From assembly GCA_017301975.1 (NCBI GenBank), contig JAFLEI010000023.1:1-64000 (forward strand): 64,000 nt of DNA, in the 5' to 3' direction. This document shows positions 19,769 through 59,631 of the stretch, piece after piece. Both the position numbers and the translations under genes were made by a program. The DNA comes from Verrucomicrobiota bacterium (GTDB lineage Bacteria; Verrucomicrobiota; Verrucomicrobiia; Verrucomicrobiales; Verrucomicrobiaceae). Below the pieces are notes generated by a model, which worked only from the letters and a program-made list of their open reading frames with translations, did not search any database and had not been told where the DNA came from. Position 1 is the stretch's first letter, and every line of letters begins with the position of its first letter.

Positions 19769-22700
19769 ATGAAAACACTTCGACGCAATCGCATTCTTCT
19801 CGGCTGGTTCATGACCGTGCTGGTGTTCGCCATGCAAGTCGCCACCCCCTTGCAGTCCGCGACCATTTATTGGACGACGGATGGCAAGGTCTCCGGCGAG
19901 TTCGGCTCAGGAAACTGGAGCACCACTGACGCCAACTGGCTGGCCACCGTGCCAACGAACACGGCGGGAACTCAGGTGGCCTGGAACAATGGAGCCGCCA
20001 ACACGGCAGTGTTCCTTGGTTCGGCCAACGTGAGCATCACCGCCCCCATCACCCTCGCCGGGATTCAGTTTGAGGCCGCAAACAGTCTCACGGCCACTAC
20101 CGGAGCCAATTCCCTGACGTTTGTCGGCGGCTCGCCCACCATCACCATCAAGGGAGATTCCAGCATCACTGACACCGTGGTCGGTCTCAATGCCGCGCTC
20201 GCCGGCACGCAGGGATTGTCCATTCAGTTCACCGACACCGCCACCACGGCGGGGGCGGGCCGCGGCATTCTGCAGCTGGGCGTTCAGAACAACAATTTCG
20301 CCAGCTCCCTGACGGGCGGCATCACGGTTGGCAACAAGGCCGAACTCCGGGTCGTCGCCAATTCAACCGACCTGACCACCGGGAAAAATCCGCTCGGCAC
20401 CAACCAGGTCACCCTGCAGGCCGGTTCCACGCTGGACCTCCGCGGGTTCAACTCCACCGCGAATGGTCTTTCCGCCCGCGTGTTCAACACCAACGGCACC
20501 GGAGACAGCGCCCAGGTGGACTTCACCAAGACTGCCGCCAGCCTCGCCACGGACTTCTTCGTGACCGGGACGAGTTTCAGCACCACCACCGCGCCTCTCG
20601 GCGTTCAGTGGGTGGGCAAGGTGGACATCGGCCAGGCCGGCGCCTACACCTTCTTCGCCAGCGTGGATGACGGCGCGAAGATCTACATCGACGGCGTCCT
20701 CGTGCTCAACAACGACGGTGGCAAAGGCGCCACGGACCTTTCCAGCTCCGCCATCTTCCTGGCCTCAGGCTCGCATGACATCCGCATCGACTATGTGAAC
20801 GGCTCCGGCGGCGGCAGCCTCAACCTCGGCTACGCCGGTCCGGACACCAATGACAGCAACGGCCAGATCCGCAAAGTCATCCCCTCCAGCAGCCTTCATC
20901 AGGCGGACGTCAACACCGTGGACGGCTCCAGCAGTGCCCTGCAGTTTGGCAATGCTGTGCGCCTCACCGGCAATGCCGAGATCTCCCTCTCCAACACCTC
21001 CCTCAGTTCCGCCGCCATGGGGCGCCTGCTGCTGGACACCGGCGTCACTCTTTCAGTGAACGCCTATGATCTCCTCGGGGAGACCGCCACCGTGGGCAAT
21101 GGCGGCGGCTTTGGCAAGACGCTGCGTTTTGGCGGAACCTCCGCGGCCCCGACAGTCTTTGGTACTGTGGGCTCAGGCACCGGCACCGGCGGCACGGTCA
21201 CCATCGCCTCGGACATGAACGTGGCTTTCGACGGCGTCGTTTCGGATGAGGGCCGGGCCATGACCATTCAAAAGACCGGCGCAGGCTGGCTCTACTTCAA
21301 CCAAACTCAGAGCGCCAACACGCTCGGCTCCACCTCCAGCATTCAACTGATCGGCACCTCCGTGAGCCAGACCGGCGAATACCTCGCGTCGAGCTATGGC
21401 ACGGACGGCACGCTCAGCGGCAAGGCCAGCACGCTGACAACCACGAGCACCTCCGGGCTGTCCGTGGGCATGACGGTCAGCGGAGACGGGGTTCCCAAAG
21501 GCGCGGTGATTATCGCCATCGTTGACAGCACCCACTTCAAGGTTTCCGGGGATGCCTCCCTGGTCACGACCGGCACTTCGCTGACTTTTTCCAAGACTCC
21601 CACGCTGGTGCTCACCGGCAGTTCGGAAGTCGGCTCCTTTGACCCTATTGGCTCGGCAAAGATCGTCCTCGCGGGCGGCAATCTGGTGCTGGATTCCAAA
21701 GGTGGTTCGGTGGCTGGCGCAGGCCCCACGTTCGGCAATGCCGTTGATGTCACTGCCGACGCAGTCATCCAGGACGTCGCCAACACCGTGGCCACGACCT
21801 TGGGCGGCGCGATCACCATCTCCAGCGGCAAGACCCTCGTGCTGGACGCCATTGCGGGCGGCCGTCCCGCCACGGACGTCGGCGCCAATCTCGTCCTCTC
21901 AGGCAGCATCACCGGGGACGCCAGCACCTCCATCATCATCCGCTCCACCCAGAAGAATGCAGGAACGACGGTCACCGCCATCGATGCCCTGGCCAATGGC
22001 GTGGTGCAGCAGATCGGTTTTGCGTCCGCCAGCGGCACCGTGACCTTGACCGGCGACAACTCGGGGTTCGCCGGACAGCTCGTGTTTGAGCCCGGTGCCA
22101 ATCTGCGTGTGCTGGGAGTCAGCGCCCTCAACAACAAGACCTTCACCATGGCCGGCGGCACGCTTCAGCTGCTGGACAACGGCAACGGCACCGGCGGTCT
22201 GCAAAATCTCGCCTTCAACCACAGCATCACCGTCACTGGCAATGCCACCCTGACTGTCGGCCCCTCCTCCGCGGCGGTGTCGCCGTTTTTCAATCCGGCC
22301 GCCAACAAGCGCGCGCAGATTTCATCTCTGACCGTCGGCAGCAATGTGGTGACGGTGGCCAACAACAACGGCTATGGCCTGCAGGTCACCGGAGCCACCA
22401 CCCTGACGGGATCCCCGACCTTCACCGTCAACAACGCCACCACTTCGAACAATCTGGTCCAGGGCCTTGAGCTCGCCGGGCAGGTGACCGGGGTGGGAAG
22501 CATCGTCAAAGCCGGCTCCGGCACGATGGTGCTCAGCAATGGCACCAACACCTTTGGCGGCACCACCGCCTTCGCAGCGTTTGGCAACAGCGGCAGCACC
22601 GTCCTCACGGTGGAAAGCGCATCCAAAGTAGCCGCCGGAGAGCTGCTGAGCGGCGCAGGCATCAGCACCGCCAACGGCGGCACGCGCATCAGTTCCATCA

Positions 22701-25700
22701 CCACGCAGAATTTCGTCACCAGTGTCGCCAGCGGCCAGACCACGCTCACCCTGGTGTCGGGTGTTTCAGGTTTCACAACCAACATGCTGGTGAGCGGAGA
22801 CGGCATCCCGCCGGGAACGCGGGTGGTGAGCGCCGGAGACGTCAGCACCACGAGCTCCGGCTTCAGCGGCACCAACACCGTCACGGTCAGCGACAGCAGC
22901 AGCTTCCGCGTGGGCATGGCCGTGTCCGGGTCCGGCATTCCGGCGGGCACCTACGTGGCGGAAATTCTGCCCGGCAACCAGCTTCGCCTCAGCCAGAACA
23001 TTACGGTGGGCAATCCCACGCTCGTCAGACATCAGGTGACCCTCACCAATCCCGTGAGCACGGCGGACACCACGCTGGTGCTGACCCAGCTCAACCTGAA
23101 CCAGGCGCTGACGGCGGGGCTCAATGGCACCACCACGGTCACCGGCACCTCTGTCATCAATGTCACCGCCGGTGTTCTTTCTTTCACGAGCGATGGCGCC
23201 TTGGGAGATTCCTTGAATCAGGTTCTCGTCAATACCAACTCTGCCACGACCGGACTGCGCGCGGACGGCACCTTCCATTCCAACGGCCGCACCTTCATCC
23301 TGAACCAGACCAACAACGCCATTGACGTGACGGCTGGCAACATCTTCTCGATGGACAGCACCTTCAGCTTTTCCAACAACAGCAACAACCTGCAAAAGAA
23401 CGACGCGGGCACGCTGGTGCTTTCGAGGCCGATGACCCAGGGGCTTCCAGGGCTCACCTCCGCTTGGAACGGCATTCTCACCGTCGGCCAGGGAGTGGTG
23501 CGGGTGACGAATGCCGCAGCCCTCGGCTCCGCCGGCAGCTTTAATCTCGGTTCCAGTTCTGGCTCCTCCTACACCCTTGTGGCCAATGTGGCTGCGGCAC
23601 TGGAGCTGACGGGTGGGATCACGGTCGGCGAAACCTTGGTGTTCAATCCTGGCAACAACATCACCTCCAACGGCATCAACGGGGCCGGCGCCCTGCGCAG
23701 CACCGCCTTTGGCGGAACGGTTCAGGTCCTGAGCAGCTCGACCTCCAGCACCACGGTCACCCTGGTCGGAGCCCCCCCTGCCATGCTGGTTGCCGGAGCC
23801 TCCTTCATGGGCTCCACCATCACGGCCGTCAATGGCAGCACGATCACGCTGGCTTCGAATGCGAACGCCACCATCTCCAGCGCCACCTCCCAGGCTTATT
23901 CCCTGAGCGGCGACAACACCTACAGCGGCACCATCACGTTCTCGGGCCCCACCAATGGAGATGGCACCTACCGTTCCGCCACCATTGGTGTGGATGCCGG
24001 ATCAACCCTCCACATCACGGGCACCATGATTGGCCGCGTGGGCACCGGCGGTTCTGGTCGCGCCTCATGGTTTGGTTTCGTCGGTGAAGGCGATGGATTC
24101 ATCGACACGGCCATGAGCTACGACGGCAATCTCTCCTTCGGCACCTACTCTCTGGTCAAGGCCGGCACCGGAAACTGGACGATCACCGCCGCCAACGCCT
24201 TCCCCGGACAGATCGTCTATGTGAATCAGGGCGCTCTGGTGCTCAATGGTGCAGGCACCCTGGGCACGCCGGGCACCAATGGCGGGGTCGGCACGGTTGT
24301 CTTGACGCCCGAAGCGACTCTCACCCTCGACAGCACCGCCACCAAGACCGACAACCGGCTCGGTGGCCGTGCCCTTTCGCTGTATGGCGGTGCCATCAAC
24401 CTCACTGGAAACGCATCTGAAACCACCTCCGAGACCGTTGGCGCGTTGACGGTGAATGCCGGGCAGACGACCATCACGCTCGGCAGCCTCGGGCAGCAGG
24501 TCAGCTTCGTCACGGGATCGGTCACCCGCGCCACCAACAACGGCGGCATCACCGGCACCATGCTGGTGCGCGGCCTCAGTGGTGGGTCCTTCCAGTCCTC
24601 CACCGGAGGCTTTGCCTTCACCGGTCAGACCGGCGCTGCAGGCACTTTCAACAAAGGCATCATCCCTTGGGTGATCGTTGACCCCAGCGCCTCGGGCTCG
24701 GGCACTTCTTTTGCCACTGCTGATTCGGTCACCGGTGCCCTGCGTGCGTTGAACACCACCACCGAAATGGTGACCACCCTCACCAACAACCTCAATGGCA
24801 ATGCCACCCCGCTGAACGTGCTTCTCTCCAGCAATCTGGGATTCGCCTCCAATGCAGTGGTCACCAGCACACTGCTCAACAGCCTCACCATCAACTCCCT
24901 GACCTTGCAGGGCAGCGGTGCCGTCACACTCAATGCCGCTCAGACTCTCACTCTGGACAGCGGTGGCGTGCTCGTCCTGGCAGGCGCGACAAACGCCAGC
25001 ATCAGCGGCAGCGGCATCGGCCGCCTCGGCACCAGCAGCAACAACCAGTTCGTTTACTATACCTTGAGCGATCTCTCCGTCGGTGCCGCCATGTTTGGCG
25101 TCTCCGCAGGTCTGGCAAAGGCCGGTGCTTCGACACTGACGCTCGCCACCCAGCAGTTCTACACCGGCGGCACGGCGGTCAATGAAGGCGTCCTCAAACT
25201 GGCCGGCGGCACCAACACCATCTTTTACAACAGCGACTTCGTCCTTCAGGGCGGCTCGCTCGACCTCAACGGCAATACGCAGGTGCTGAACCTCCTCCGC
25301 ACCAACACCACGTCCGCCCAGGGTGTCAACCTGGTTCCGGACATCGGCGGCACCGTCATCAACAGCTCCGCCACCCTGGCCACTCTGGGCCTGGTCAACA
25401 CGGGAGGCAGCTTCTCCGGCTCCATCACCGGCAACATCTCCCTCGTGCGCTCCACCAGCGCCAACAGCTACACGGACTGGAACATCTACTCCGCCAACAC
25501 CTACACGGGCCCCACCATCCTCAGCGGCGGCCGTCTCCAGCTTCTGGGCACCGCCACTCTCAGCAACACCTCCTCCATCACGCTCAACCAGTCCACGCTG
25601 CTGTTGAGCAACAACAACGGCAACAGCATCCTGGACCAGCTCGTGGACAATCGCATCAACGATTCGGCGGCGATCACTCTGCGCGGCGGCATGATCCAGT

Positions 25701-28700
25701 ACCGCGCACGTTTTGGCAGCGAAGGCACCGAGGCTTTCGGCTCGCTCACCCTCGCTCAGGGGGCCAGCGTGATCGATGTGGCCGCTCCCGGCACCGGCAT
25801 CAACAGTTCCACCGCCACCTTCACCAGCCTCACGCAGGAGGCCGGATCGCACGGTACCCTGCGCTTCTTCAACGTCACCGGCAACTACGGCAACAGCACC
25901 GCCCGCGTGTTCTTTGACAACATCAACGGCGTCAGTGCCGCCACGGTGGGCGCAGGCCTCACCAACGACATCATCGGCGGCTGGGCCGTGGTGGAGCGTG
26001 AATTCGCCAGCTACAACCCCGGCACCGGTGTCGGAGCCCTGAATTCCGCAGGCTACGCAGGCTATTCCACCCGCGACATCAACTCGGGCATCGCCACGGA
26101 CAACATTCGCCTGGCCTATGCAGCCGTGACTTCCACCGGAGTCGTTGGCAAAAATCAGCTCACCGTCGCCACCACCGCAGGTCTGCAGGTTGGAGACGCC
26201 GTCCTCGGCTCCGGCATCCCCGTGGGCGCGGTCGTGACTTCCATCATTGATGGGAACAACTTCACCATCGACCAAAACCTGGGCACCGCCAACCCCACGC
26301 TCACCCTGCCGCAGACGGTGACCCTCACGGGCAACCGCACGATCAACAGCCTCGCCATGGTGGTGTCCGGCAACAGCACGCTGGACCTCGGCGGCTTCAC
26401 CCTGAACCTCGCCAGCGGCGGCCTGATCGCCTCCCAGGGCTTCGACTTGATCAACCCCACCGTCAATGTGGTGACCAGCTCCACCTCGAGCAACACCGTG
26501 CTGCTGGCTTCCATGCCCAACACCCTGACCATTGGTTCCTCGATTCTGGGCAGCACGGTGACGGCCATCAACGGCCTGACCATCACCCTCGCCTCCAATG
26601 CCAGCGCCAACATTGCCGCTTCGACGGCGGTCAACTTCGTCAGTTCCCTGGTCATGCCCATCGTCATTGGCAACGGCAACCTCACCGCAGGCGCCGGCGC
26701 GGCCGACCTCTACCTCCACGCGCTGGGCTACGTGAATGGCAACGGCAATGTGTATGGCCGCAATGTGTTCGTCGGCGCCAACATCGTGGACAACGGCACC
26801 GGCCCGGTGACCCTCGTCATCGATGGCACGGAAGGCCGTGGCGTGACGGGCGGTCTCCTCAGTGGCTACCGCACCAACCAGGTGGTGCTCTCCGGCAACA
26901 ACACCTACTCCGGCGGCACCTACGTGAATGCCGGCTTCGTCGTGGCGAACTCCACCACGGGCCGGGCCTTCGGCTCTGGCAATGTCACCATCACCGGCGG
27001 CGGCAGCACCAACGGCAGCACCTTCCAGGAGCGCACCACCACGGTGATGCTCGGCGCCGCAGACCAGATCAACACCACCGCCACGCTGAACATGCTGGGC
27101 GGCAGTGTCTTTGAGCTCAACAACTTCAACCAGACCCTCGGCGGCCTGGTGTTTGACAACACCGGCGGCAACAGCCCGACGGTGTTTCTGGGCGACGGGG
27201 TGCTGACCCTGAATGGCAATGTCACCGCCACCTCCACCAACCTCGGCGCGGTCTCCACCATCGCCGGCGCTGGCATTGTGGTTACCGGCACCATCGGCTC
27301 CAACCTCGTGACCCTGGTCTCCGGCAACATGTCCAACCTGGCCGTTGGTTCTCCGATGGTCGGAGGCAATTTCGCCGGGGGCACCGTCGTCACCGGCATC
27401 TCCGGAACCAAGATCACGCTGTCTGCCAATGCCATCAACGGCAACGCAGGCGCAGGCTTCAGCAATTTCGTCAGCTACACCACCAGCGGCACTGTCGCTC
27501 TCGGCGCAGGCAGCCACACCTTTGACATCGCTCCCGTGATGGCCAATGGCGTGAACCTCGCCCCGCTGCTTTCCACCCTGAACATCGCCAGCGTGATGAC
27601 CGGCAACGCCAGCATCATCAAGACAGGGGCGGGACTCCTGCAGCTCAGCGCGGCCAACACCTTCACCGGCGGCGTCAGCATGCAGAACGGCAGTCTTCTT
27701 TTCAGCACCGGCAGCGTCTACAATGCCGGCACGCCGGGAGTCGTGAGCGCCGGCCCGATCGGTTCAGGCACCCTCACCATGTCTGGCAGCAACAATCTCA
27801 CCCTCCTCTCCAGCACCAGCCTGTCGATCGGCAATGCGGTGACCTTTGATGCGGGTTTCTCCGGTGAGTTCAGGTTCGACAGCACCGTGTCCACCGGCAC
27901 CAACCTGACCCTCAGCGGTCTGGTGACCCTGCCCGGCGCGGTCACCATCAACGTCATCAATCCCGGCATGACGGCCGCCCTCGGCCAGATCACCCGCGTG
28001 GGCCCGAACGGCAATATCGTGATCAACAAGACCGGCCTCGGCACCCTTTCCCTCGGGGCAGTGACCGCAGGCAACTCGATCACCCTGAACATGAACGGCG
28101 GCAATCTCTCGCTGCTCAACGACGGTGACGGCACCGGCTCCCGCCAGGTGATCGACAGCGCCATCACGGTCGTTTCCACCCAGGCCCTGAATCTGACCGT
28201 GGGCCGTGCCGGTACGGTGTACGCCCCGCTCTTCACCTCCGCGGCAAACAAGACGATCCAGATTGCAGGCTCCACCGGCACCACCTTCACCAACGGCGTT
28301 CTGTCAGTGACCAACAACGTGGGCTACGGACTGGAAATCACCAGCAACGTCACGCTGGGCGCCAATCAGGCCATCAACGTCAGCGCGGCATCCGCCTCCA
28401 CGCAGATCCAGGGGCTCACGCTCTCGGGTGTTGTCTCAGGCCCTTCCGGAATCACGAAAGTGGGCGCGGGTGCTCTGGTTCTTGGCAATGCCTCCAACAG
28501 CTTCACCGGTTTGATCGACATCCAGGGCGGCATTGTGGCCGTCTCCTCGAATGGGGCGCTGGGCAACGCCTCCAATAATATCTTGCTCAATGTGAACGCC
28601 GCCACCGGCGTCGGACTGCGCGCCACCGGCACCTTTGCCACCAGCCGCCTCATCACCTTGAACCAGGCCAGCAACGCCATCGAAGTGACGGCCGGGAACA

Positions 28701-31700
28701 CGCTGACCCTGAACACCGCCTTCGGCCTGGGTTCGGTTTCCAACGCCCTGCAGAAAAATGACAACGGCACGCTGGAGCTGAACGCCAGCAACAGCACCTG
28801 GACCGGCATCCTCACCATCGCCGCAGGCGCGGTCAAAGTCTCCAATGCCAGCGCGCTCGGCACGGTGGCTGGCGGCACGGTTGTCACCGGCTCCGGCGCG
28901 GCGCTGCAGCTCAACAACGTCAGCATCGGTGCCGAGCCCCTGAGCATCAACGGCTCCGGCATCAACAACGGGGGCGCTCTCCAAGCTGTTTCCGGAACCA
29001 ACGTTTACGCCGGCGCCATCACACTCACCAACGCCACCACCGCCCCCACCACCATCGGAGCGGACAGCGGGACCACCCTCACTCTCACCGGCGGAATCTC
29101 CGGGGCGCAGAACCTCATCTTCGCTGGTGCGGGCAACATCACCAGCACCACCGTCGGCATCGGCGGCGTCGCCTCCATCACCAAGATGGGCAGCGGCATG
29201 TTCACCCTCGGAGTGACCAGCGGATCGTTTGGCGGCAGTCTCATCATCAGCGAGGGCACCTTCCGCATCAATTCGGGCGTCACCATCGGCGGCACGGGCA
29301 CCATTTTGGTCCAGGGCCCTTCCGGGGTGCTGGATCTTCAGGGGGGGCTTGCCCACATGACGGGAGCACGCGCTTTGACCCTCACCGGCGGCACGGTCAA
29401 CATCTCCGGCGCCACGGGCTCGTCCCAGGTTCTCGGGACGCTGACCACCAACCGCGGCATGACCAACATCATCAATTTTGGCGCTGCCACCGGCACGAAC
29501 ACGCTGACCTTCAGCAACCTGGTGCTCAACGGTGACTCCAGCCTCAATTTCACCGGCACGCTGAACTCCACCACCAACAAAATCGTCTTCAGCAGCACGC
29601 CCGGCATGATCAACAGCATCATCCAGCGCGCCCTGGTCAACGGCACCGACTTCGCCACCTACAACGGCAGCGGCGGCAGCGGCAACGTTCAGGCATTCAC
29701 CGCCTACAATACCTCCAACAGCATCGACAGCCTCGGTTCCACCAGCAATGCCACGCTGCTCCTGACCTCTGCCAACCCCACCTTCACGGGCAGCACCAAC
29801 CGCGCAGCCAATGCGATCAAGCTCAGCGGCTCCGGCATCAATCTGGGCGGAGACCTCACCGCTCAGGGGGTCACCCTCACTCTGTCCGCAGGCGCCATTC
29901 TCAACGTCGGCGGTAACAATGTGATCAATGTCCCCCGCCTGAATTTCGTGAACCCGGGCAACAACAATGCCGCCACCCAGGCTTATGTGGCCGTGGGTGA
30001 CACGACCACGCTGACCATCAACAGTCTGCTGACCGGCGGTGCCGGATTCGTCAAGGATCTGCCTGGCACCCTGATCCTCAACGCGCCCGCAAATCGCGCC
30101 GGCGTGGCCAACATCAGCGGCCAGATCCTGACTGGCAACTTCGTGATCAATGCCGGCAAGGTTGTGCTCGGCGGCGGCAACAACACCCTGACCCCCAACC
30201 AGTTCCTCATCGTCGCCACGGGCGCCACGCTGGACCTCAACGGCACCTCCCAGTTTGCCTTCGGCACACGCGGAGACAGCGCCTCTCTGCAGGGCAATGC
30301 CGGCACCTTCACCAACAGCAGCGCCAGCAAGGCAGCCCTCATCCTGGGCGCGGACAACGGCGGCTTCAACTTTGGCGGCGTGATCAAGCAGGAGGTCGGC
30401 GCAGGTGCCATGAGCTTCCTCAAGAGCAGCCCGCAGCAGTACAACTTCCTCAACGCAAACACCTACAGCGGTGCCACCGTCTTTGCTGGCGGCGTCAATG
30501 TGCTGGCAGACGGCGGCATGCTGACCAACACCTCCTCGATCGGCGTCAACTACGCCTACTTCCGGCTGGACGACAATGTCAACTTCACCCTGGCCAACCG
30601 CGTGAACATCAATGCCGACATCACCCTGAAGGGCGGCTCTCTGGTTTATCAAGGACGCACCCAGACCGAGACTTCCCAGTCTGTCGGCAATGTCATCCTG
30701 GCCGAAGGCTACAACATGATCCAGTCCGCCAACGGCGGCACCGGCATCAATTCAGCCACCTTCAACATCCTCTCGCTCTCACGCACTGCCGGTTCGACCG
30801 CCACGCTGCGTCTGCCTGACAACGGCATCGGCGCCATTGGAAACAACGGACGCATCCTCATCACCACCCTCAACGGGGTCCTCACCAGCACCAACACCGG
30901 CGGCGTCAACATCAACAGCGGCGGTCTGGTCAATGGCCTCATCGGACCGTGGGCCGTCGTGGACCGTGAATTCGCCAGCTACATCGCCGATCTCGGCGTC
31001 GGGCGCCTCAACCAGACCGGATTTGCCGGTTATTCCATCAACACGCTCAACGGCACGCCGATCGCCACGGACAACATCCGCGTCACCGCCAATGTCGGCC
31101 CTCTCCTCTCTGACACCACCATCAGCACCCTCGCCATCAATCCCAGCGGTGCTCTGGCCTCCATCGACCTCGGCGGCAAAAAGCTGACCCTCCAGGGCGG
31201 GGGACTCCTGATGGCGCTCTCCGCCGCGAACCGCAGCATTATCATCGGCAATGGCTCCATCACCGCCGGCACGCTGAACACGGACAGCGACCTCTATGTC
31301 CATGTGCTCCCCTACGGCCAGCTCGGCTCCTCCACGGTGATCAATGCAGACATCACCAACAACGGCACCGGCAAAGTCCGCCTGATCATGTCGGGCAGCG
31401 ACGGCCAGGCCAATCTCACGCTCAACGGCACCAACACCTACACCGGCGGTACTGTGATCAATGGCGGTGTGCTGATCATCGGCGCCACCGGCAGCATCGC
31501 AGGCGGCGGCATCACCGTCAGCGGCGGCTACCAGTCGGGCAGCGGCATCCTCGTCCAGACAGCGGGCGGTGTGATCGATTCCAGCAACCTTCTCACCATT
31601 GACGGAAACGGCATTGCGGTGCTGACCGGAACGCAGACTCTGAAGGGCCTGGTCTTCAACGGTTCCGGTGGCGGCACCGCCTCCCCCACCGTCACCTCCA

Positions 31701-46700: not shown

Positions 46701-49700
46701 CGGGAGTCACCACCCTGAATGCTGGCGTCACCACCATCCAGTCCCTTGGCATCGAAGGATACAATGCCGGCACGCAGATGATCACCAATCTCACCTCGCT
46801 GGGCCGCACGGCCACGCTGACGGACACCACCGGTCTCACCATCGGCACCCTCGTCAGCGGCGGTGAGATCCCCTCCGGCGTCACCATCACCGCCATCAAC
46901 AGTCCTACCACGATCACGCTGTCCAACGGGGCGCTTGTCACCACCACCGGTGCAAACCTGAACTATGACAGCAGCGCCATCACGGCGAAGACCGGCGCGA
47001 TTTCCGCCACCACCACCGTCAACAGCGCCACCATCACCGTCGCCAGCGGCACGGCAGGGCTCAGCGTCGGTCAGACCGTTTCGGGCACGGGGATCCCCAC
47101 CGATGGTGGCACCGTGGTCATTCTCTCCATCATCAATGGCACCCAGATCACCATCGGGGTGCTGAATGGCGGAGGGAATGCCGCGTCACTCGCGACCGCT
47201 TCGGGCACCACCAATCTCACCTTTGGCAACAACACCTCCCTCTTCACCGGCACGCTTGCCACCAACACCCAGAGCGGCGCGCTTATCACCGTCGGCAGCA
47301 CGCTCGGCCTGACCGTCGGCCAGACCATTTCCGGCAACGGCATTCCTGGCGGCTCCACCATCGTGCGGATCTTGGATCAAAACACCATCGAGATCTCCAA
47401 TCCCGTCACCACCACCGGCCAGAACAACCTCAGCTTTGGAGCCAGCACCAGCATTGGCGCCACGCTGCTCGCCACCACCACCAATGGCGACTTCAGGATC
47501 ACCGTTCCGACCACCGCCAATTTGAGCGTGGGCGAGCTCGTCTCCGGACCCGGCATCCCATTGGGCGCCACCATCACCAAAATCATCAACGGCACCACGA
47601 TCGAAATTTCCGTGGCGGCGATCTCCACCGGCTCCAACACCCTCGTCTTTGCCGGCCCGGCTTCCAGCCTGGGCGCCTCCCGCAATGCCCTGGCCAATTT
47701 GGTCTTCAACGGCGGCACCCTCCAGTTCAATGGCGCCAGCGCCAGCTCGGACCGCGGCTTCACCATCAATCAGACCGCCGTCTGGGATGTGGGCAATGCC
47801 TACACGGTGCTGACCCTGGGCGGCAATTACACCACCCCCGGCAATCAGGATGATTACAGCATTGTCAAAATCGGTGCAGGCACCCTCTCCCTGCTCGGAA
47901 CTTCCTTTGGCGGCTACGGCATCACTTCCCTGGTGGTGGGAGACGGCACACTGAAGCTCTCACCTGCTTTCAACGACCAGTACATCCGCAACGATGTGGG
48001 CTCCCTGACCATGGCAGGCGGCACGCTCGATATTCAGAGCATCTCAGGCCGCACCACCACTCAGAACATCATCGGCACTCTGAACATTACCGAGGGCTCC
48101 TCCAGAATCCGCGTGACGGGCTCCTCCGGCTCCGGAACCTTCCTCAATCTGCAGGACGTCAACACCCCTTCACCTATTAACTTTGAAAAGGGCGGCACCG
48201 TGTTGTTCGAGGTGAACGGCGGCGCCCTCGTGGCCCAGATCACCCTCTCCGGGCGTGCTCTGCTCGACGTCGGCGTTCTGATGCCTCGCGCCTTGTTCAC
48301 CATCAACAGCACCCTCAACCCCGGCATCAACAATTTTGCCTTTGTGGACTCCTCCACAAACATCCTCACCGGCTCGGACATCAAAGGCGCCCATACCTTC
48401 AAATCAAATCCGGCAGACTGGCTTGCCACCTACAACATCTCTGACGGCGCTCTGCTGGAAGAATCCTTCTCGGGCAGCACCGTTGCCGGCGCGTCGGTGA
48501 ACACCATCCTGCTGACCAACAACAGCACCTCATCTGCAGGGGATACGAGCACCTCTTCCACGCTCGTGACCCGGGTTCCAGGCGTTGACCGTCTGAAGGT
48601 CGGAGAGCTGGTGCGTGGCAATGGCATCGCGGATGGCACCTTCATCACCGCCATCGATGTGGTCAACAAAACCATCACCCTCAGCCAGGCTCCCACCCTC
48701 GCGAACGTCCCGGCGACTTTGTATGCGTTCACCGTTCCTACCGTCACCGGCACCATCGTCGCTGGTGATTACACGATCACCAACATCTACGACGCACGCC
48801 TGAAAGTGGGCATGAATATCTCCGGACCTGGGATTCCGTCAGGCTCGATGATTTACTCCATTGATGCCAGCGCTCGCACGATTACGATTGTTAATGGTGG
48901 GCCTTCAGGGGTGTTTACGCAGAGCGGTACGGATCTTACCTTTTACTCAGAAAACCTCGCCACCCTGCCTGTCGAGCTCAATTCCAGCGTCGTCACCATC
49001 ACGGACACGCTCACCATTGCCAGCGGCGCCATCCTGCAGTCCACTCATTCGGGCATCCATCAAAACTCCATTGTCGGCGGCGTGCTGACCAGCGGTCTGG
49101 CCAACACAGACGGCACCACGGCTGACCTCATCATCTACAACTGGAATCCGCTGACGGCCCTGACCATCAGTTCCTCGATCTCCAACAACAGCTCCGCAGG
49201 TCTGCTCGTCAATCTCGTGCTCAGCGGAAATGGCACCACCGCTCTCTCAGGCTCAAACACCTACACCGGCACCACCTATCTGCAGGGCGGCGTCATGCGC
49301 CTTGATTCGGCAGACGCGCTGCCTGCCAACAGCCACCTCCGCATTGACGGCGGCGTGGTGGGCCTCAATTCCGGCGACTTCACCCGCAGCCTTGGCACCG
49401 GCAGCACGCAGGTGGATTGGACGAGCAGCGGTGGCTTTGCCGCTTACACGACGAATCGCACCGTCAACATCGGCGGCAGCGGAGGCACTCTGGTCTGGGG
49501 CCTGAACGGCTTCGTGCCCGACAATGATTCGCTCATTCTGGGCGCTCAGGATGCCAACAGCACGGTGATCTTCGCCAATGGCATTGATCTTGGCCGCAAA
49601 TCCCGCCTTGTGGAGGTCATCAGCGGTCGCGGAACAGTTTACACATCTCCTGGTGTCCTGGCTGCAGATGCCTCCATCACCGGTGTTCTCTCTGGCAGCG

Positions 49701-51862: not shown

Positions 51863-51928
51863 GCCAGTCTGGGCTCCGGCCGCTGTGAAATCCCCTGATC
51901 TTGGCTTTGTGTTTACATGATAAATACC

Positions 51929-51976
51929 TTGTCAGGTGGATGCGAATTCATTATTATCGCTTCATAAATCGATAAT
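51929..51976 (+). promoter_or_regulatory. Promoter with overlapping palindrome ahead of the cassette
   Basis: TTGTCA (51929-51934) and TATTAT (51952-51957) lie 17 bp apart, each one mismatch from consensus. A perfect inverted repeat, ATTATCG (51953-51959) / CGATAAT (51970-51976), overlaps the -10 box and the expected start of transcription. This is a classic position for a repressor operator. The region is sharply AT-rich compared with the genes on both sides. A Shine-Dalgarno AGGAG follows at 51982-51986, six bases before the ATG. Confidence 0.7.
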
Positions 51977-51992
51977 TTACCAGGAGCTAATC

Positions 51993-54900
51993 ATGAACGC
52001 CGCAACATTCGTAGCAAAATTGAACAAGCGCAGGAAGGCCATGGCTTTAGTCATGGTGGTCACCACCGTGGCCTTGATGTCCATGCTTGTGGTCGCCATT
52101 TTCTCGGTCACCCGTACGGAATACAAGGCCAGCCAGAGCTATGTGGCCTCCCGCAGCGCCAAGCAGCTCGCGGATCTCGCCGTCGTTTTTACCGAGGTGC
52201 AGCTGCAAAATGCCCAGAACACCGCCACCGGTTCCTTTAGCCGCACCATTCATGCCACTCAGCCCGGCATGGCTCGTGTTTACCAGTCCAATGGGGACTT
52301 TGTGCGTGCCCACAAGCTCTATTCCAGCTCGCAGATGGTGATCACCAGTTCCAATGAGGCGGACATCTTCAACACCGCCAACCAGATCCCGACTGACTGG
52401 GCTTCGGCGCAGAATGTGGCACGCTATGTGGATTTGAACGACCCCATCGTGCGCCCAGGTCTCACCACCGGCACCATGGCCCTTTATTTCCCGATCATTG
52501 ATCCACGGGCCGCTTTCAATGGCACCAACCCCGAAAATCAGCGCACCATGACCGCCGTTGAGGGATTCACTTACACCAAGGCGACCCCCGCCATCACCGG
52601 CGCAGGTGGAACGGTGACCTACAATGAAGTGGTGACCCCTGCAGATGCCGGCAATGATCCCAACAAACTGCGCCTGCCCATGCCGGTCGAATGGATTTAT
52701 GTCCTGCGGGACGGCACCACCGGCGCGCTCGATGCCAGCAACAAGTTCATCAGTGCGGACGGTTCCACCACTCCCTCCGCCAGCAATCCCATTATCGGAC
52801 GTGTGGCCTTCTGGACGGATGACGAGTCCTGCAAAGTCAATGTCAACACCGCCTCGGAGCCCACCTTTTTTGCTCCACCGTACTTCTATCATCAGCGTGA
52901 TTCCAAATGGGCCAATTTTCCCGGCACTGCGGGCGAATATCAGCGTTACCCCGGTCATCCCGCCACGGTGGCTTTGAGCACAGTGCTCGCACCCGGCGTC
53001 AAGCTGGACGTTTATGCGCAGGGTGCCAACGTCGACAACATCACTGAGATCAAGGACGCCATTTACACCCTCATTCCAAAGATTGCCAAAGGCGGCTCTA
53101 CTTCGGGCACCAGGCCGTTCGTCAAAGATGAGTTTTCCAGCAGCAATGGTGAACTGACCGTGGCCAACAGCGGCGACACCCTCATGGCTCGAAAAGAAAG
53201 ACTCTTCGCCAGCGTGGATGAAATGCTCTTTGCGGACGGCACCAATGACTCCTCCTTGAACTACAACGACAGCAAGGGCCGGGTTGCCACCAGCATTCAG
53301 CTCCCTGGTCAGGGCTCGCGCTACTTGTTTGATCACGACACCTTGGAACGCTCCAGGTTTTTCCTGACCTCCAACAGCCGCTCTCCCGAATTCAGCATTC
53401 ACGGCCTTCCGCGCATCGCCATGTGGCCCGTCGCGGACGAAGGGCTGGGGCAGCAGCGCCGCACCAGCTTTGACACCATGATCGCTCTCTGCTCCACTCT
53501 GCGTGGCAAGACTGCAGGAGCAGCCGTGGCCAACAGTTACATTTTCCGCCGCGCCCAGCCTCATCATCCCACCCATGACGTGACCGGTTCCTCCTCGGAC
53601 TACGGTGGTTCCACGGGGCTGACCAGAAACAGCAAATTGCTCGATTATCTCTACGCAGAGATGACGACTTTGCAGTTCCCCCAGACTTCCTCGCTCGGCA
53701 CCAGCAACAATTTCGGCCAGAAGTATGGCACCGACAATGCCGCCCAGCTTGCCATCCAGTTCTTTGACTACATCCGCTGCACCAACCTCTATGACGGCGT
53801 CCTGGCGCGCAACAATGATGGGATGTCCGGCTACAACGGCACCAACCCGATCACCGGCACTCCGCTATATCTGCAGAGAGACAATATTTCCACCTCTCGT
53901 TTCACCTACACGGAGCAGCGCATCACCCGCCGCGCTTCGGGCAGTTTGAACGATGGCACGCAGACGCAGATTGGCAGTTCATTGGTGACGGCCGATCAAT
54001 ATGTGTTCCCGGGTCACGGCCAGGTCTCACCGGCGCGCTGGAGCAAGAACGGTCGCATCGTTCAGGGCCTGGGCCGAATGTTCACGATTTCAGAAATCGG
54101 CTTCCAGTTCATCTGCACGGCCGATGGCCAGAATGATCCTCAATACGCCGTCAACACCGGCGGTGTAATGAGCGGTGGCGGCAGCGCCCCCAAGGCCCTT
54201 TCCACCCGTGAAAGCGGTGCAGCCCCCTCCAACAATCCTGGCGGTTCGGCTGCGACCTTCCTGCCACCCCAGATGCCGCCGCGCGTCCCGCCATGGCTGG
54301 GGTTCAATCGCTGGTATTCCAATTTCCCCCCGCTCTCGGCCCCCTACGGCAACGGTACTTACTACGGCTGCAATCCCTCCATCGCAGCCCGGCATCCGTC
54401 TCTCCATCCTGGCTACAATCCCATCAACTGGAACATGACCTTGGAGCTGAACACTCCCCTCCAGCAGGATCAAAAACGGGTGCAGGCCATGCTGATGCTG
54501 GAGTTCTTCTGCCCCATGTCGGGCTGGACGAAGATGTTCCCGGAGTGGGCCATTGTTCTCGATGGCAATTTCATGCGCTCCATCCAGCTCAATGGACAGT
54601 CGCTGTTTCCCACGACACAGGACGTGATCGTCAAATCCAACGGCAACGTCTACGAGGCCTTCGACTGCTATTCCATGGGTGGCCATGTGGGCCCCACCGC
54701 CATTGCGGGCGGTCGCGCCGGTCCGGGCTGGGGAACCAGTCTGATGGGGGACGACACCAATCCCTATGTCTCAGGAACAGCCCGTGCCAGTGACACCAGC
54801 CGTTACCTCGCCAATCCCGGCTCCAATGACAACGGTCATGACGGTTTGAACAACTGGGGTCTCATCAGCCAGTTCATCACCGTGAACCGCAACACGCCGA

Positions 54901-57095
54901 TGGTTTTGACTTTCGGCCAGCGCGATCTGGTGATCAAAATCTATGACTCCCACAGCAAGGCCGGAGCCAATGGCCAGGAATGCCAAAGCATCAGCGTTTC
55001 GTTTGATGGGGCCTCCCTGCCAGTCCCCGCCCTGGTCTATTCGGCCAACGAACGCCGCGTCAATGGCTCGCCTCTGTATGAGCCTGCAAACAAGAACGAA
55101 ATCGATCACTTTTTTTATACCGACGCCTACGGCAGGGACACCTATCGCCGTTCCGCCCAAGCTCCCCATTGGTGGTGCTTTAACCGCATGGGCTGCCTCA
55201 ATCGCATGATTGGCCCGCCCAATCCGGCTTACAAAGGAACCGCCAATCCGCCCCTGTATCTGGTGGCCCCCAGCTTCAACCAAACCTTCTCCTCCAGTGA
55301 TGACCAGTTGTTTACCGGCCGCCTGGACACGGAATCTCGATTTGCTTCCGTTGCCGGCGGCAGTGTCAGCTTTGACAATGGAGGAAGAGTTGGACTCAGC
55401 ATCATTCCGCCCGAGGCAACCGTCACCAGCGGTGGCGCCGTCATCACGGATGTGAATGGGAATCCCTGGTCGGGTTCGGATGTCATCCGCACCTTTGTGC
55501 CTGCTGTCGGGGATTACCGGCTCCCCGCTGCCCGCTACAATGTGCCCAACACCATGTGGATGCGCCACCCGCTGTGGCAGAAAGTGGACTCCATGCCGCC
55601 ACTCACCCAGCCGCGCAGCATTCACTCCTTCACCACGCACATCGCCACCACCGAGTCTGGCTGCATCCTTCCAACCGCAGCGATGTTGACCAAATATTCA
55701 GCCCTGTTGAGCCTGAACAAAAACCAGCAGCTCGTCGCTGGTGCACCTTACGGCGATGCTCGCATTCCTGATCTGCCACCCGATGACGGCTGGGCGGCCA
55801 CCGCCAACGCCTTTGGCGACTACGACAACGGAATCGGCAACGCCCGTGACGGTGCCTACGTAAACAAGCCGGACGAGGGCAACTTCTACGCGGGGAGATA
55901 CACCCGCAACAACGTGACAAAATTCTACCGCTCGGGCTATTTCTACGAGCCCTGGCACAACAGCGACGACTGGCGCACCGGCATCTACATGACTCCGAAC
56001 CGCATGGTGTCTTCCCCTGTGATGTTCGGCTCACTGCCCACCGGGGTCTGGTCCGGTGGCAATGTCAGCGCCAGTGCTGTTTCCGGTGTGTCTTACTCGG
56101 AAGGCAAACCCTGGCAGACCCTTTTGTTCCGTCCCCACGCCAGCTCCAATGCCAACTACGGCAAGGCTGTCACTCCCGGCCATCCGGGCGACAACAATCC
56201 CCGGGACCATTACCTGCTGGACCTCTTCTTCATGCCCGTCGTGGAGCCCTACGCCATCAGCGAGCCGCTTTCCACCGCAGGCCGCATCAATCTGAACTAC
56301 CAGATTGTTCCTTTCACCAACATCACCCGTGCCACGGGCATGCATGCCGTGATGAAAGGCGAGTTCATGACCGCCATTCCTCTGGGCGATATTGACAACG
56401 CAAAAACTTACTATTCCAACAGAGCCGGTGCAAGTTCCACGGAAGGGCAGGCTGCCTGGTCCGGTTCTGGAGACGTCTTCTGGAATGAGGGCGCTCACCA
56501 AAGGTACTGGCACCGCCCGATTGATGTCACTAAGACACTGTACCAGTTTGAGCAGAAGTTCCTCCACTCGGCCACAGGCACGAACCATGCGCTCAACCGC
56601 TACCGCGGCCTGTTCCGCAGCCCAAGCCAGATCTGTGAGATCCACCTGATCCCCGACGTCAGCAAAGGGGCCTCAGCCGGTGGTGAAACCCTCGGCAGTA
56701 TTTCCAACATCAACGCCAACACCAGCGGCACCAACTTGCAGTCTGTCATGGAGCAGTTCTGGCAGACCCATCCAGGAACGGGTGACAATACTCGTGAACG
56801 CCCCTATTCCAACATTTACGCCCGTGTCACCACGCGCAGCAACACCTTCCGGGTCCACATGCGTGCGCAGGTCATCACCAAGGCCCGCTCCACCGCTGCA
56901 GACACCATGGATCCCACCAAGGATGCCATCCTGGGTGAGTATCGCGGTTCCGCCCTGATTGAGCGTTACATCGACCCCACCGATTCGAACAATCCTCTGC
57001 CCGATTACGGCGCGGCTTCCAACCCGCTGGGGGAAAAGCCCTTGGATTATTATTACAAGTTCCGCACGCTCGAAAGCAAGCGTTTCAGCCCATAA
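51993..57095 (+). CDS. Verru_Chthon cassette protein A (GspK-like giant minor pseudopilin?)
   Basis: A 1700-residue protein. The ATG at 51993 is chosen for the AGGAG six bases upstream. A basic N-terminus (KLNKRRK, 9-15) precedes one hydrophobic helix (about 17-40), without the F-x-x-x-E prepilin motif. Residues 276-288 (DDESCKVNVNTAS) match the (I/L/V)-N-(L/V)-N-T-A block found in GspK/PilX-type pseudopilins, which also lack Glu at +5. The rest is a large extracytoplasmic part rich in Tyr, Trp and Asn. Family identity (TIGR02600-type cassette A) comes from the A-B-C-D order and the giant neighbour. It may cap a pseudopilus that exports the giant protein (inference). The cassette genes follow on the same strand with gaps of 50, 11 and 51 bp and are probably one operon. 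Confidence 0.88.
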   Translation: MNAATFVAKLNKRRKAMALVMVVTTVALMSMLVVAIFSVTRTEYKASQSYVASRSAKQLADLAVVFTEVQLQNAQNTATGSFSRTIHATQPGMARVYQSNGDFVRAHKLYSSSQMVITSSNEADIFNTANQIPTDWASAQNVARYVDLNDPIVRPGLTTGTMALYFPIIDPRAAFNGTNPENQRTMTAVEGFTYTKATPAITGAGGTVTYNEVVTPADAGNDPNKLRLPMPVEWIYVLRDGTTGALDASNKFISADGSTTPSASNPIIGRVAFWTDDESCKVNVNTASEPTFFAPPYFYHQRDSKWANFPGTAGEYQRYPGHPATVALSTVLAPGVKLDVYAQGANVDNITEIKDAIYTLIPKIAKGGSTSGTRPFVKDEFSSSNGELTVANSGDTLMARKERLFASVDEMLFADGTNDSSLNYNDSKGRVATSIQLPGQGSRYLFDHDTLERSRFFLTSNSRSPEFSIHGLPRIAMWPVADEGLGQQRRTSFDTMIALCSTLRGKTAGAAVANSYIFRRAQPHHPTHDVTGSSSDYGGSTGLTRNSKLLDYLYAEMTTLQFPQTSSLGTSNNFGQKYGTDNAAQLAIQFFDYIRCTNLYDGVLARNNDGMSGYNGTNPITGTPLYLQRDNISTSRFTYTEQRITRRASGSLNDGTQTQIGSSLVTADQYVFPGHGQVSPARWSKNGRIVQGLGRMFTISEIGFQFICTADGQNDPQYAVNTGGVMSGGGSAPKALSTRESGAAPSNNPGGSAATFLPPQMPPRVPPWLGFNRWYSNFPPLSAPYGNGTYYGCNPSIAARHPSLHPGYNPINWNMTLELNTPLQQDQKRVQAMLMLEFFCPMSGWTKMFPEWAIVLDGNFMRSIQLNGQSLFPTTQDVIVKSNGNVYEAFDCYSMGGHVGPTAIAGGRAGPGWGTSLMGDDTNPYVSGTARASDTSRYLANPGSNDNGHDGLNNWGLISQFITVNRNTPMVLTFGQRDLVIKIYDSHSKAGANGQECQSISVSFDGASLPVPALVYSANERRVNGSPLYEPANKNEIDHFFYTDAYGRDTYRRSAQAPHWWCFNRMGCLNRMIGPPNPAYKGTANPPLYLVAPSFNQTFSSSDDQLFTGRLDTESRFASVAGGSVSFDNGGRVGLSIIPPEATVTSGGAVITDVNGNPWSGSDVIRTFVPAVGDYRLPAARYNVPNTMWMRHPLWQKVDSMPPLTQPRSIHSFTTHIATTESGCILPTAAMLTKYSALLSLNKNQQLVAGAPYGDARIPDLPPDDGWAATANAFGDYDNGIGNARDGAYVNKPDEGNFYAGRYTRNNVTKFYRSGYFYEPWHNSDDWRTGIYMTPNRMVSSPVMFGSLPTGVWSGGNVSASAVSGVSYSEGKPWQTLLFRPHASSNANYGKAVTPGHPGDNNPRDHYLLDLFFMPVVEPYAISEPLSTAGRINLNYQIVPFTNITRATGMHAVMKGEFMTAIPLGDIDNAKTYYSNRAGASSTEGQAAWSGSGDVFWNEGAHQRYWHRPIDVTKTLYQFEQKFLHSATGTNHALNRYRGLFRSPSQICEIHLIPDVSKGASAGGETLGSISNINANTSGTNLQSVMEQFWQTHPGTGDNTRERPYSNIYARVTTRSNTFRVHMRAQVITKARSTAADTMDPTKDAILGEYRGSALIERYIDPTDSNNPLPDYGAASNPLGEKPLDYYYKFRTLESKRFSP

Positions 57096-57145
57096 GGATC
57101 CGCCGTTGCCATTCTTCTCCCCTCGGAGCCCATCTTTCTTAGCAT

Positions 57146-57619
57146 ATGAAAAGTCTCACAAAAACCCGGTCGAAGGCTGGTTTCTCATTGGTCGAGGTCA
57201 CTCTGGCTGTGGCCATCGCGGCTCTCGCCATCATCACGCTCCTGGGCCTCCTGCCTCAGGGGCTTGAGATGGCGCGTAAAACGGCGCTGATGGTCAATGA
57301 CAGCAACATTCTGGAGCAGATCACCCATGATCTGGAGAACGCGGCCTTCGATCAGTTGCCGACGCAAACATTGAAGAAATACTACAACGATCAGGCCCGC
57401 GAGGTGCAGCAGGATGCCACTGACCTCGCCTTCGTGGTGGAAATCGAACCGCAGCAGGTCGTGGCGCTGCCTAAAGCCGAGAAGACCCAGCCGTATATGA
57501 AGCGAGTGATCATCCGCATCGCCGCATCCAGTTCTCCTGGGTTTGTGTTCACGCCGCTCAGCAGCAACACCGGTGCCCCTTATGTCACCTTCAATCATTT
57601 GATCGCCAAAACCCGCTGA
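57146..57619 (+). CDS. Verru_Chthon cassette protein B, type IV pilin-like
   Basis: A 157-residue protein with a prepilin N-terminus: basic leader MKSLTKTRSKAG, predicted cleavage after Gly12, then FSLVE with Glu17 at +5 and the hydrophobic helix VTLAVAIAALAIITLLGLLP. The sequence around the helix resembles minor pseudopilin GspI. The C-terminal domain (about 50-157) is small and soluble, with one beta-rich end (MKRVIIRIAASSSPGFVF). It needs a prepilin peptidase, not seen here. Confidence 0.9.
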   Translation: MKSLTKTRSKAGFSLVEVTLAVAIAALAIITLLGLLPQGLEMARKTALMVNDSNILEQITHDLENAAFDQLPTQTLKKYYNDQAREVQQDATDLAFVVEIEPQQVVALPKAEKTQPYMKRVIIRIAASSSPGFVFTPLSSNTGAPYVTFNHLIAKTR

Positions 57620-57630
57620 TTTTTACTGAC

Positions 57631-58848
57631 ATGAAGCTTTCCACCTTCTCGCCGCGACCAGCCTCGCTTTGCCGCCCCCGGCCAGGTGCTCGCGCTGCTT
57701 TTACCCTCATTGAACTCCTCGTTTCAGTGACGTTTCTTGTGATCTTGATGCTCGTCGTCTCCCAGGTCATCGGCATCGTGCAGCGCAGCTGGGTGCGGGC
57801 CAATTCGCGCGTCTCCCAGTTCCGTGAAGCGCGTCAGGCGTTCGACACGCTCTCACGCTCCCTGTCTCAGGCAACCCTGAACAATTACTGGGACAATGAA
57901 TTCGACACCGTGGGCACGGATGCCGCGGGCCAGCAGATCACTCTGGCCAAAGACTACTTCAGGCAGTCGGAGCTTCAGTTTGTCTGCGGCCCCACCAGCA
58001 AGGTCGTACCCGGTGCCGCAGGCAACGCGCAAAACTATCCGGGCCATGCCGTTTTCTTCCAGGCACCTCTGGGAATCGCAAGCCTTGTCGCCACGACCAC
58101 CTCGGGCTCTTCCAACACCCAGCCGGTCAACACCGAAAACATGGTCAATCTTCTCTGCGGCCGCGGATATTTCGTGGAGTGGGGAACCGATGCTTCATTC
58201 CGTCCTCCCTTTCTGGAACAGCTTAACAATGCAGTCCCTGTGCGCAGCCGCCTCCGTTTGATGGAATACAGCCCCACCGCCGAAAAAAACCGCATTTATG
58301 ACACTTCGTTGCGGCCCATCACCTCCCATTCCATGGAGTGGTATCAGGATGTGCTGAACACCGAAGTGCAAAGCGCACAGGCGGAGACGGCCCAGACTCG
58401 TGCCTTCACCCGCCCCATTGCCGAAAACATCATTGCCCTGGTGATTTCTCCGCAGATGGAGGTCACCGGCAATCAGAACACAACTCCTTACGGCATCGCC
58501 CCTCAGTATCTTTACGATTCGACTTTGAAGCTCAATCCGGGCGCCACGCTGAACAACGTTGGTCCGCAGGGCACTCAGCACCTTCTCCCTCCGTTGCTGA
58601 AGGTCAGCATGATCGCCTTGGATGAACGGTCCGGTGAGTTCCTGGCGCGAGATGAAAACAGCCAGATGCGGGCGCAGTTGCTGACAGCCATTGCGGGCAA
58701 GCTCCAAAATGCCGCAAGCTTGAGCGAAGAGCTTGATGGAAGCCAGGGCAAGGCGGGAACTCTGGTTCAGCTTCTGCTTGATCAAAAGCTTAACTACCGA
58801 GTTTTCAGCACCACCATCGCCTTGAAACAGTCCCGCTGGAGCTTCTGA
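57631..58848 (+). CDS. Verru_Chthon cassette protein C, type IV pilin-like
   Basis: A 405-residue protein. The leader is 23 residues and basic; cleavage is predicted after Ala23, before FTLIE with Glu28 at +5, and the helix LLVSVTFLVILMLVVSQVIG follows. The periplasmic part is far longer than in a normal minor pseudopilin. A stretch near 290-330 (MEVTGNQNTTPYGIAPQYLYD) and the end (LNYRVFSTTIALKQSRWSF) are beta-rich. The N-terminal pattern and the long, beta-rich body recall GspJ. It begins 11 bp after gene B. Confidence 0.9.
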   Translation: MKLSTFSPRPASLCRPRPGARAAFTLIELLVSVTFLVILMLVVSQVIGIVQRSWVRANSRVSQFREARQAFDTLSRSLSQATLNNYWDNEFDTVGTDAAGQQITLAKDYFRQSELQFVCGPTSKVVPGAAGNAQNYPGHAVFFQAPLGIASLVATTTSGSSNTQPVNTENMVNLLCGRGYFVEWGTDASFRPPFLEQLNNAVPVRSRLRLMEYSPTAEKNRIYDTSLRPITSHSMEWYQDVLNTEVQSAQAETAQTRAFTRPIAENIIALVISPQMEVTGNQNTTPYGIAPQYLYDSTLKLNPGATLNNVGPQGTQHLLPPLLKVSMIALDERSGEFLARDENSQMRAQLLTAIAGKLQNAASLSEELDGSQGKAGTLVQLLLDQKLNYRVFSTTIALKQSRWSF

Positions 58849-58899
58849 TCAGACTTTTCCTTTGCACCCGTGCTCTTTAACTCGGCCCCATTCCTTCCT

Positions 58900-59631
58900 A
58901 TGACTCACTCCCCATTCTTTGATCGGCAGGCCCGGCGGGCCTTCAGCTTGATCGAAATGCTAGTGGTGATCGCCCTCGTCGCGATGATCATGGCTTCTGC
59001 CACCCCTGCCTTGATGCGCACCATGCAGGCCACCCGCCTGGCATCCACAGGCGATTCCATCATGGGGGCCATCACAGAGGCCAAGCAGCTCGCTTACGCA
59101 CAGAATGTCCCCGTGGAATTGAGGTTCTTCAAATACGCTGACCAGGATTTCCCCGGCTCCACGGTGCTGCTCTTCCGTTCTTATCAGATGTTTAAAATCG
59201 TGACCGTGACTCAAGGGGTCGGGCCGAATGCACAGACCTCGGAGTCGGTACAGCCGGTCGGAGCCTTGACCAAGCTGTCGGACGGCATCATCATCGCCGC
59301 AGACGTGGGCTTGTCCCCGTTCCTCAATGGGCAGAACGGGCAGTCAATGGATGACATCAAGACAAACGGTGCCGGCGGCGTGGGCTATTCCGGCGTGAGC
59401 GGTGCCAAATACAACGCCATCCGCTTCATGCCGGATGGCTCCTGCCGGAAAGTTTACGCTCAGCAAAACGGGTTTTCTCAGCTCGATTACGGCACCTTGC
59501 CGCTGAGCTTTTTAACCCTCACGTTCAATAGCGGCGCCGACATCACCACCGGGAACCTGCCCAAAAACTTTTACACCATTCAGATTGATCCTTACACCGG
59601 AAAGGCGCGCAATTATCGTCCCGGCTTCTAG
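58900..59631 (+). CDS. Verru_Chthon cassette protein D, type IV pilin-like
   Basis: A 243-residue protein. The ATG at 58900 gives the leader MTHSPFFDRQARRA, cut after Ala14, then FSLIE with Glu19 at +5 and the helix MLVVIALVAMIMASATPAL. This fits GspH-like minor pseudopilins (short leader, M-L-V-V-I-A-L). A GTG at 58870 is an alternative. The soluble part has a beta-rich middle (VPVELRFFKYADQDFPGSTV) and ends in a basic GKARNYRPGF. It is the last gene of the cassette; guaB follows after 83 bp. Confidence 0.9.
   Translation: MTHSPFFDRQARRAFSLIEMLVVIALVAMIMASATPALMRTMQATRLASTGDSIMGAITEAKQLAYAQNVPVELRFFKYADQDFPGSTVLLFRSYQMFKIVTVTQGVGPNAQTSESVQPVGALTKLSDGIIIAADVGLSPFLNGQNGQSMDDIKTNGAGGVGYSGVSGAKYNAIRFMPDGSCRKVYAQQNGFSQLDYGTLPLSFLTLTFNSGADITTGNLPKNFYTIQIDPYTGKARNYRPGF

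Follow-up and report, generated by a model that had tools for sequence, protein, structure and literature searches.

A cassette of four pilin-like genes lies directly downstream of the gene for a 1.06 MDa exported repeat protein in a relative of Prosthecobacter, and the set is best read as an enlarged K-I-J-H group of minor pseudopilins. The cassette may supply an alternative minor-pseudopilin tip to a type II secretion system (T2SS) or type IV filament machine, and the linked giant would be a client that is moved to the surface and fixed there by its tail, a reading to which we assign a probability of roughly 55%. This addresses the question of how million-dalton exported proteins reach the bacterial surface without an autotransporter barrel. 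A tip complex that is genetically tied to its likely client, and a tail that appears to have been changed naturally at one locus, would make it possible to tell apart what tip, exosortase and tail each do. The family has culturable members (Prosthecobacter, Verrucomicrobium).

The giant protein and the adjacent cassette

The window (the whole stretch of DNA analysed, 64,000 nucleotides of a Verrucomicrobiota contig) contains the following features.

15891..19439, + strand: PVC-type heme-binding CxxCH protein, upstream neighbour of the giant and locus marker in loci L097 and L099
19769..51862 (open from GTG 19700), + strand: giant exported repeat protein with signal peptide, PA14, PATR/TIGR02601 repeats and PEP-CTERM
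51779..51850, + strand: PEP-CTERM tail VPEPARLLLLLFGVLALGWRRRRR, TIGR02595 above cut-off
51936..57095, + strand: cassette A (TIGR02600), putative giant GspK-like minor pseudopilin (TIGR02600, fold of a homologue, leader)
57146..57619, + strand: cassette B (TIGR02598), pilin-like, probably in the GspI position (prepilin leader GFSLVEV)
57631..58848, + strand: cassette C (TIGR02599), GspJ-like minor pseudopilin (GspJ E 4e-5, under the GspJ cut-off)
58870..59631, + strand: cassette D (TIGR02596), GspH-like minor pseudopilin (GspH E 1.8e-5; IV_pilin_GFxxxE above cut-off)
59715..61172, + strand: guaB (IMP dehydrogenase), a neighbouring housekeeping gene by which the orthologous cassette locus is recognised in relatives

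Counted from ATG 19769, the giant comprises 10,697 aa (1,063 kDa) with a pI of 4.8 and zero cysteine, and its frame is stop-free from GTG 19700 or ATG 19769 to 51862. A signal-peptide-like segment forms the N-terminus, a PA14 domain occupies aa 232-360, and PATR/TIGR02601 repeats are distributed over the whole length in Pfam and NCBIfam scans. The C-terminus is a PEP-CTERM tail, with the characteristic layout of Pro-Glu-Pro, hydrophobic helix and basic cluster; TIGR02595 scores 20.6 bits (cut-off 16), and PF07589 from Pfam falls slightly below its cut-off on the same tail (17.6 vs 20.7). A type V autotransporter was considered and dropped because the Pfam scan found no translocator beta-barrel at the C-terminus, where the last 2,697 aa consist of PATR repeats and PEP-CTERM only. 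Pfam scans of the giant in three slices also returned no PilY1 domain or beta-propeller, of which divergent forms could escape such scans. An initial annotation, made from the sequence alone, had described an uninterrupted exported repeat frame of about 1 MDa with a PEP-CTERM tail and no autotransporter barrel, and this description is confirmed. Elsewhere in the window, positions 12195-13388 encode a serine hydrolase of the class C beta-lactamase/D-aminopeptidase superfamily, which is far under all named cut-offs and probably ordinary.

All four genes 3' of the giant, adjacent and on the same strand, exceed the NCBIfam cut-offs of the Verru_Chthon families, and the set is that cassette by four of four models: A scores 1110.7 bits with TIGR02600 (cut-off 332.3), B 73.7 with TIGR02598 (51.4), C 344.2 with TIGR02599 (256.5) and D 103.2 with TIGR02596 (70). 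Translation of A can start at GTG 51936 (1,719 aa) or ATG 51993 (1,700 aa), which places it 73 or 130 nt after the giant, and the gap between them contains no terminator-like site. Prepilin leaders, which the initial annotation had noted for three of the four genes, are present in B, C and D and bear Glu5. The leader of A is of the GspK type and lacks Glu5 in all readable cases (80 of 90 rows, comprising the window's A and 79 relatives), and leaders without Glu5 have been described for GspK and PilX (PMC7541494). Taken together, these leaders indicate that all four cassette proteins are pilin-like. The pseudopilin nature proposed earlier for the cassette is thus supported by the families, the leaders and the GspK-like fold of A described below.

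The Verru_Chthon families were already known, and their names carry no function; in the literature searched, no paper names Verru_Chthon and none joins Prosthecobacter with PEP-CTERM. The GspK-like architecture of A, the history of the guaB locus and the two tail classes, one of them ending in the S-domain defined below, extend these families.

Probable kinship of cassette A to GspK

The GspK model NF037980 scores 21.3 bits on A against a cut-off of 130 and covers only the N-terminal ~78 residues, and A is therefore named GspK-like rather than GspK. The GspK, GspJ and GspH matches of A, C and D are all far under the NCBIfam cut-offs; B has no GspI match, and its GspI position is suggested by the set and the gene order. 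By sequence, A has no match in the PDB, and BLAST gave no meaningful alignment with the genome's own GspK, so that the case for kinship is carried by the fold, the leader and the weak N-terminal match.

The fold was examined with a homologue of A that is shorter than the window's protein (G078, 1,178 aa; AF2 pLDDT 74.9, pTM 0.81). VIA-align matched this model to 3ci0_K, the GspK chain of the ETEC GspK-GspI-GspJ complex, at Z 8.8 over 254 of 280 residues (rmsd 3.6 Å), and the second-best PDB chain reached Z 4.3. Since Z 8.8 is just over the range that VIA-align gives for models without a clear match, the case for GspK depends on how far the next-ranked chain falls behind, combined with the leader and the family evidence. 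Foldseek ranked 3ci0_K weakly (E 1.6). The aligned part of the model spans residues 42-1178, which implies a GspK-like fold split by large insertions, and two conserved motifs of A are separated by a median of 1,237 residues. On the strength of this model, A is best read as a probable GspK-like protein with very large insertions of hundreds of residues; GspK of the T2SS has ~300 aa, whereas cassette A proteins have ~1,200 to 1,800 aa.

The cassette resembles the GspK-GspI-GspJ-GspH set of the T2SS in its four pilin-like proteins, in a K-type member with no Glu5 and a GspK-like fold, and in its weak GspK, GspJ and GspH matches. Unlike a T2SS operon, it has no GspG, E, F, L, M or D, and its scores stay under the Gsp cut-offs.

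Secretion and sorting machinery elsewhere in the genome

Contig C36 carries a T2SS operon in which GspE, F, H, K, M and D were matched; this operon has its own minor pseudopilins, separate from cassette A-D. The genome also encodes several additional assembly ATPases and secretins, and type IV pilus-like PilB/PilC genes are found on contig C42. Three exosortases were matched, two over the TIGR02602 cut-off and the third, exosortase U, over its own. Exosortase U shares contig C36 with the T2SS operon, upstream of which it is encoded (L173:4652-6229; operon L173:12844 to L174:5517). The exosortase and the T2SS ATPase and secretin that the initial annotation proposed to look for outside the window are therefore all present. 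The cassettes are predicted to be extra tip sets beside those of the T2SS itself; the T2SS core genes are in the genome, and their partnership with A-D is a prediction from gene content. Immediately before exosortase U, C36 also encodes a small PEP-CTERM protein.

Only two cassettes occur in this genome, each directly 3' of a PEP-CTERM repeat giant (10,697 aa and 5,913 aa). At least seven further PEP-CTERM repeat giants have no cassette (11,596, 9,073, 6,260, 3,930, 2,881, 2,383 and 2,267 aa), and the first of these is the longest in the genome. Neither giant size nor PEP-CTERM thus requires a linked cassette. Over their terminal 200 aa, the linked and unlinked giants that were compared do not differ in kind, and a special tail on cassette-linked giants was rejected because the unlinked C46a and the linked C90 share 70% identity over their last 198 aa. 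The earlier proposal of a dedicated exporter for a giant fibre is weakened by these cassette-free giants with the same kind of C-terminal module. Another TIGR02601 protein of this genome (contig C7, L016:5677-15048; 3,123 aa) ends in FRYEF without PEP-CTERM and may be an ordinary autotransporter.

Distribution of the cassette among relatives

The A family exceeds its cut-off in at least 8 of 388 Verrucomicrobiota genomes, seven of them in the window's family; this survey scored two A candidates per genome, and its cassette counts are lower bounds. Within the window's family, the A family is present in 62 of 68 genomes. Neighbouring genes were classified at 80 named loci, and a FastTree tree of 90 A proteins defined a core clade of 58 rows centred on Verrucomicrobiaceae, with an uncertain outer topology as FastTree places long branches poorly. 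Many cassette-linked proteins have no PEP-CTERM and instead combine PATR repeats and/or Ig-type domains with a conserved C-terminal domain of ~255 aa, here called the S-domain.

In a sample drawn from the relatives closest to a query headed by the window protein, and so leaning towards the window's clade, a repeat or S-domain protein stands beside the cassette at 45 of the 53 scorable core-clade loci (27 with PEP-CTERM upstream, 14 S-type upstream and 4 where a repeat protein follows D), and at 4 of 28 loci beyond the core clade. About a third of the cargo-linked core-clade loci have the different C-terminal domain without PEP-CTERM. Cargo class tracks the A tree, with 7 changes for the PEP-CTERM class against 25 in shuffles, and 6 against 14 for the S class. 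At four loci (L097, L099, L106 and L127) the giant is on the other side of the cassette and the linkage is kept. The initial annotation had linked cassettes with giant repeat proteins and would have given this up had most cassettes lacked such a neighbour; the linkage is recurrent in Verrucomicrobiaceae and close relatives, and outside the core clade, where it is rare, most cassettes indeed have no giant beside them.

Some non-core cassettes adjoin exported carbohydrate-active proteins, GH5-like, CBM9 or related (L055:15540-17759, L056:3242-6067, L057:11957-14353 and L145:239-3067).

One locus with two tails

As in the window, guaB lies near the cassette in 24 fetched loci. A PEP-CTERM giant is present at 14 of these (in addition to the window) and an S-type protein at eight; one has no giant (L096), and the contig of another is too short (L124). 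For each of the seven S giants compared, the best PEP-CTERM match was a giant of the window's A clade, namely a guaB-locus giant in five and L081 in two, and never a C90-type or unlinked giant. These matches reach 41-50% identity over ~250 residues, and collinear similarity extends further towards the window protein's end, after which the S giants have ~1,000 additional residues ending in the S-domain where PEP-CTERM would stand. Repeats may align out of register, so that orthology of the two giant classes is likely but short of proof. L092/L108 (S-type) and L093 (PEP-CTERM) form a second pair, with 41% identity over ~900 residues.

In L097 and L099, the CxxCH protein found upstream of the window's giant lies directly before A, and the giant follows D. 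Together with the exchange of tails, this order indicates that the association between giant and cassette survives shifts of position and of tail. Judged from gene order and alignments, the pair of protein and cassette appears to be constant at guaB, and the tail would be the part exchanged. The reasoning is that of Haft and colleagues, who in defining GlyGly-CTERM described families whose members bear different functional tails (PMC3237569).

The S-domain

The S-domain has no match in Pfam or NCBIfam, and no T9SS C-terminal or other sorting-domain model of these collections matches the S-domain proteins. Its AlphaFold model is all-beta and confident (pLDDT 91.6, pTM 0.88); a Foldseek search of the PDB returned nothing significant, and profile searching against PDB sequences yielded weak matches only (E 0.004 or worse). 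The frame ends 0-16 residues past the domain in 36 of 40 copies examined. Weak fold matches, which include the T11SS-type surface lipoproteins fHbp, hemophilin, HpuA and TbpB, reached at best Z 6.8, which is within the range expected without kinship. Slam (PF04575) was weakly matched in one of four S-domain genomes tested and absent from the other three, and a reading of the S-domain as T11SS cargo was rejected on this ground.

Among the 68 genomes of the family, 30 have 13 to 40+ copies, 35 lack the domain and three have one to three copies, a distribution close to all-or-none in which presence and absence are both found within one genus. In the phylum sample, the only genomes with at least eight copies are four of the eight cassette genomes, which belong to one family and are thus not independent. 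Many genomes have S-domain proteins immediately adjacent to cassettes (e.g., G191, G188, G200, G402, G403, G436 and G440). G399 has 20 copies and no cassette match, so that the domain does not depend strictly on the cassette.

PEP-CTERM and the S-domain may be alternative surface-sorting modules, as their exchange at one locus suggests. The broader proposal that Verrucomicrobiaceae have in the S-domain a new surface-sorting system, swappable with PEP-CTERM, and that its best-linked clients use dedicated tips with an enlarged GspK, is tentative, and we place it somewhat short of even odds. If the S-domain is a sorting signal, a predicted location would be gained for dozens of unannotated surface proteins per genome. 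The anchoring by PEP-CTERM and exosortase expected in the initial annotation lacks support as a general rule, given the third of cargo-linked core loci with the other domain; here the tail is in the window and the exosortases are elsewhere in the genome. The tripartite tail, its many copies per genome and the exosortase in the genome agree with the PEP-CTERM/exosortase system (PMC1569441); the S-type relatives differ in having a folded beta domain in the tail's place.

Proposed mechanism and alternatives

In the proposed mechanism, A, B, C and D would take the GspK, GspI, GspJ and GspH positions and form an alternative complex that tips or primes a machine whose core genes are elsewhere in the genome, and the insertions in A would give this tip a large head. 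The giant would cross the inner membrane via Sec and be held there by its C-terminal segment, the A-headed tip would engage it, and it would then reach the cell surface by way of the secretin. Its mode of fixation would depend on the C-terminal module, which would be PEP-CTERM with exosortase here and the other all-beta domain in relatives. T2SS export of tail-tagged proteins is reported for MYXO-CTERM and GlyGly-CTERM (PMC11980579, PMC3237569), and may apply to PEP-CTERM by analogy. Several observations count against this tip-client model: most PEP-CTERM giants of the genome, the longest included, have no cassette; cassettes occur without a giant neighbour (L096 at guaB and most non-core loci); the Gsp scores of A, C and D are low and B has no GspI match; and the GspK-like fold comes from a homologue of A. 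Linkage in itself does not amount to interaction.

PEP-CTERM tails are thought to fix proteins to the cell envelope, and PA14 domains often bind carbohydrate. The former would make the giant ill-suited to a pilus tip, which is where the main rival explanation would place it: A-D would both prime a type IV pilus and form its cap, with the giant as an adhesive or sensing protein at or near the tip rather than a secreted cargo, as PilY1 is on FimU-PilV-PilW-PilX. Myxococcus xanthus provides the precedent, with three clusters of four minor pilins and one large exported protein each, served by one shared machine, and its authors likened PilY1 to T2SS substrates (PMC7541494). The PilB/PilC-like genes and further secretins of the genome would fit such a pilus, and the PA14 of the window's giant and the Ig domains of S-type proteins suit adhesion. 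The giant, however, is a beta-repeat protein with a sorting tail in which the Pfam scans found no PilY1 domain, and some cassettes stand beside glycoside-hydrolase-like proteins; we consider the tip adhesin unlikely.

Those carbohydrate-active neighbours (GH5-like and CBM9 proteins and a sugar locus at L055, L056, L057 and L145), together with PA14 in the giant, speak for a foraging role, in which the cassette forms a pseudopilus for polysaccharide capture or uptake and the neighbour is a surface binding protein or enzyme that the cassette does not export. The commonest neighbours are nevertheless repeat proteins without recognisable enzymes, and the conserved unit includes no transporter, which leaves this role decidedly improbable. 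Both genes could also be surface-related and be kept together by shared regulation or common ancestry without joint work. That most giants are unlinked, and that L096 retains the cassette at guaB without a giant, agrees with mere co-location; against it, the linkage persists with the giant on the opposite side and after tail exchange, and S-domain proteins lie beside cassettes in many genomes, so that it too is distinctly unlikely. The tip-client model is preferred over these three.

Further members of the A family

Distant A-like proteins occur in about half of the 388 Verrucomicrobiota genomes (L066-L071; e.g., L070:9934-19310). Most have ~700-1,400 aa, with a TIGR02600 match mostly limited to the first ~60 residues, and they possibly represent a wider family of enlarged GspK-like proteins. 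Cassettes multiply in parts of the window's family, with at least seven A-family matches each in G218, G446, G448, G066, G442 and G443. At L138:9950-18443, a tandem pair of A-type genes lies ahead of pilin-like genes.
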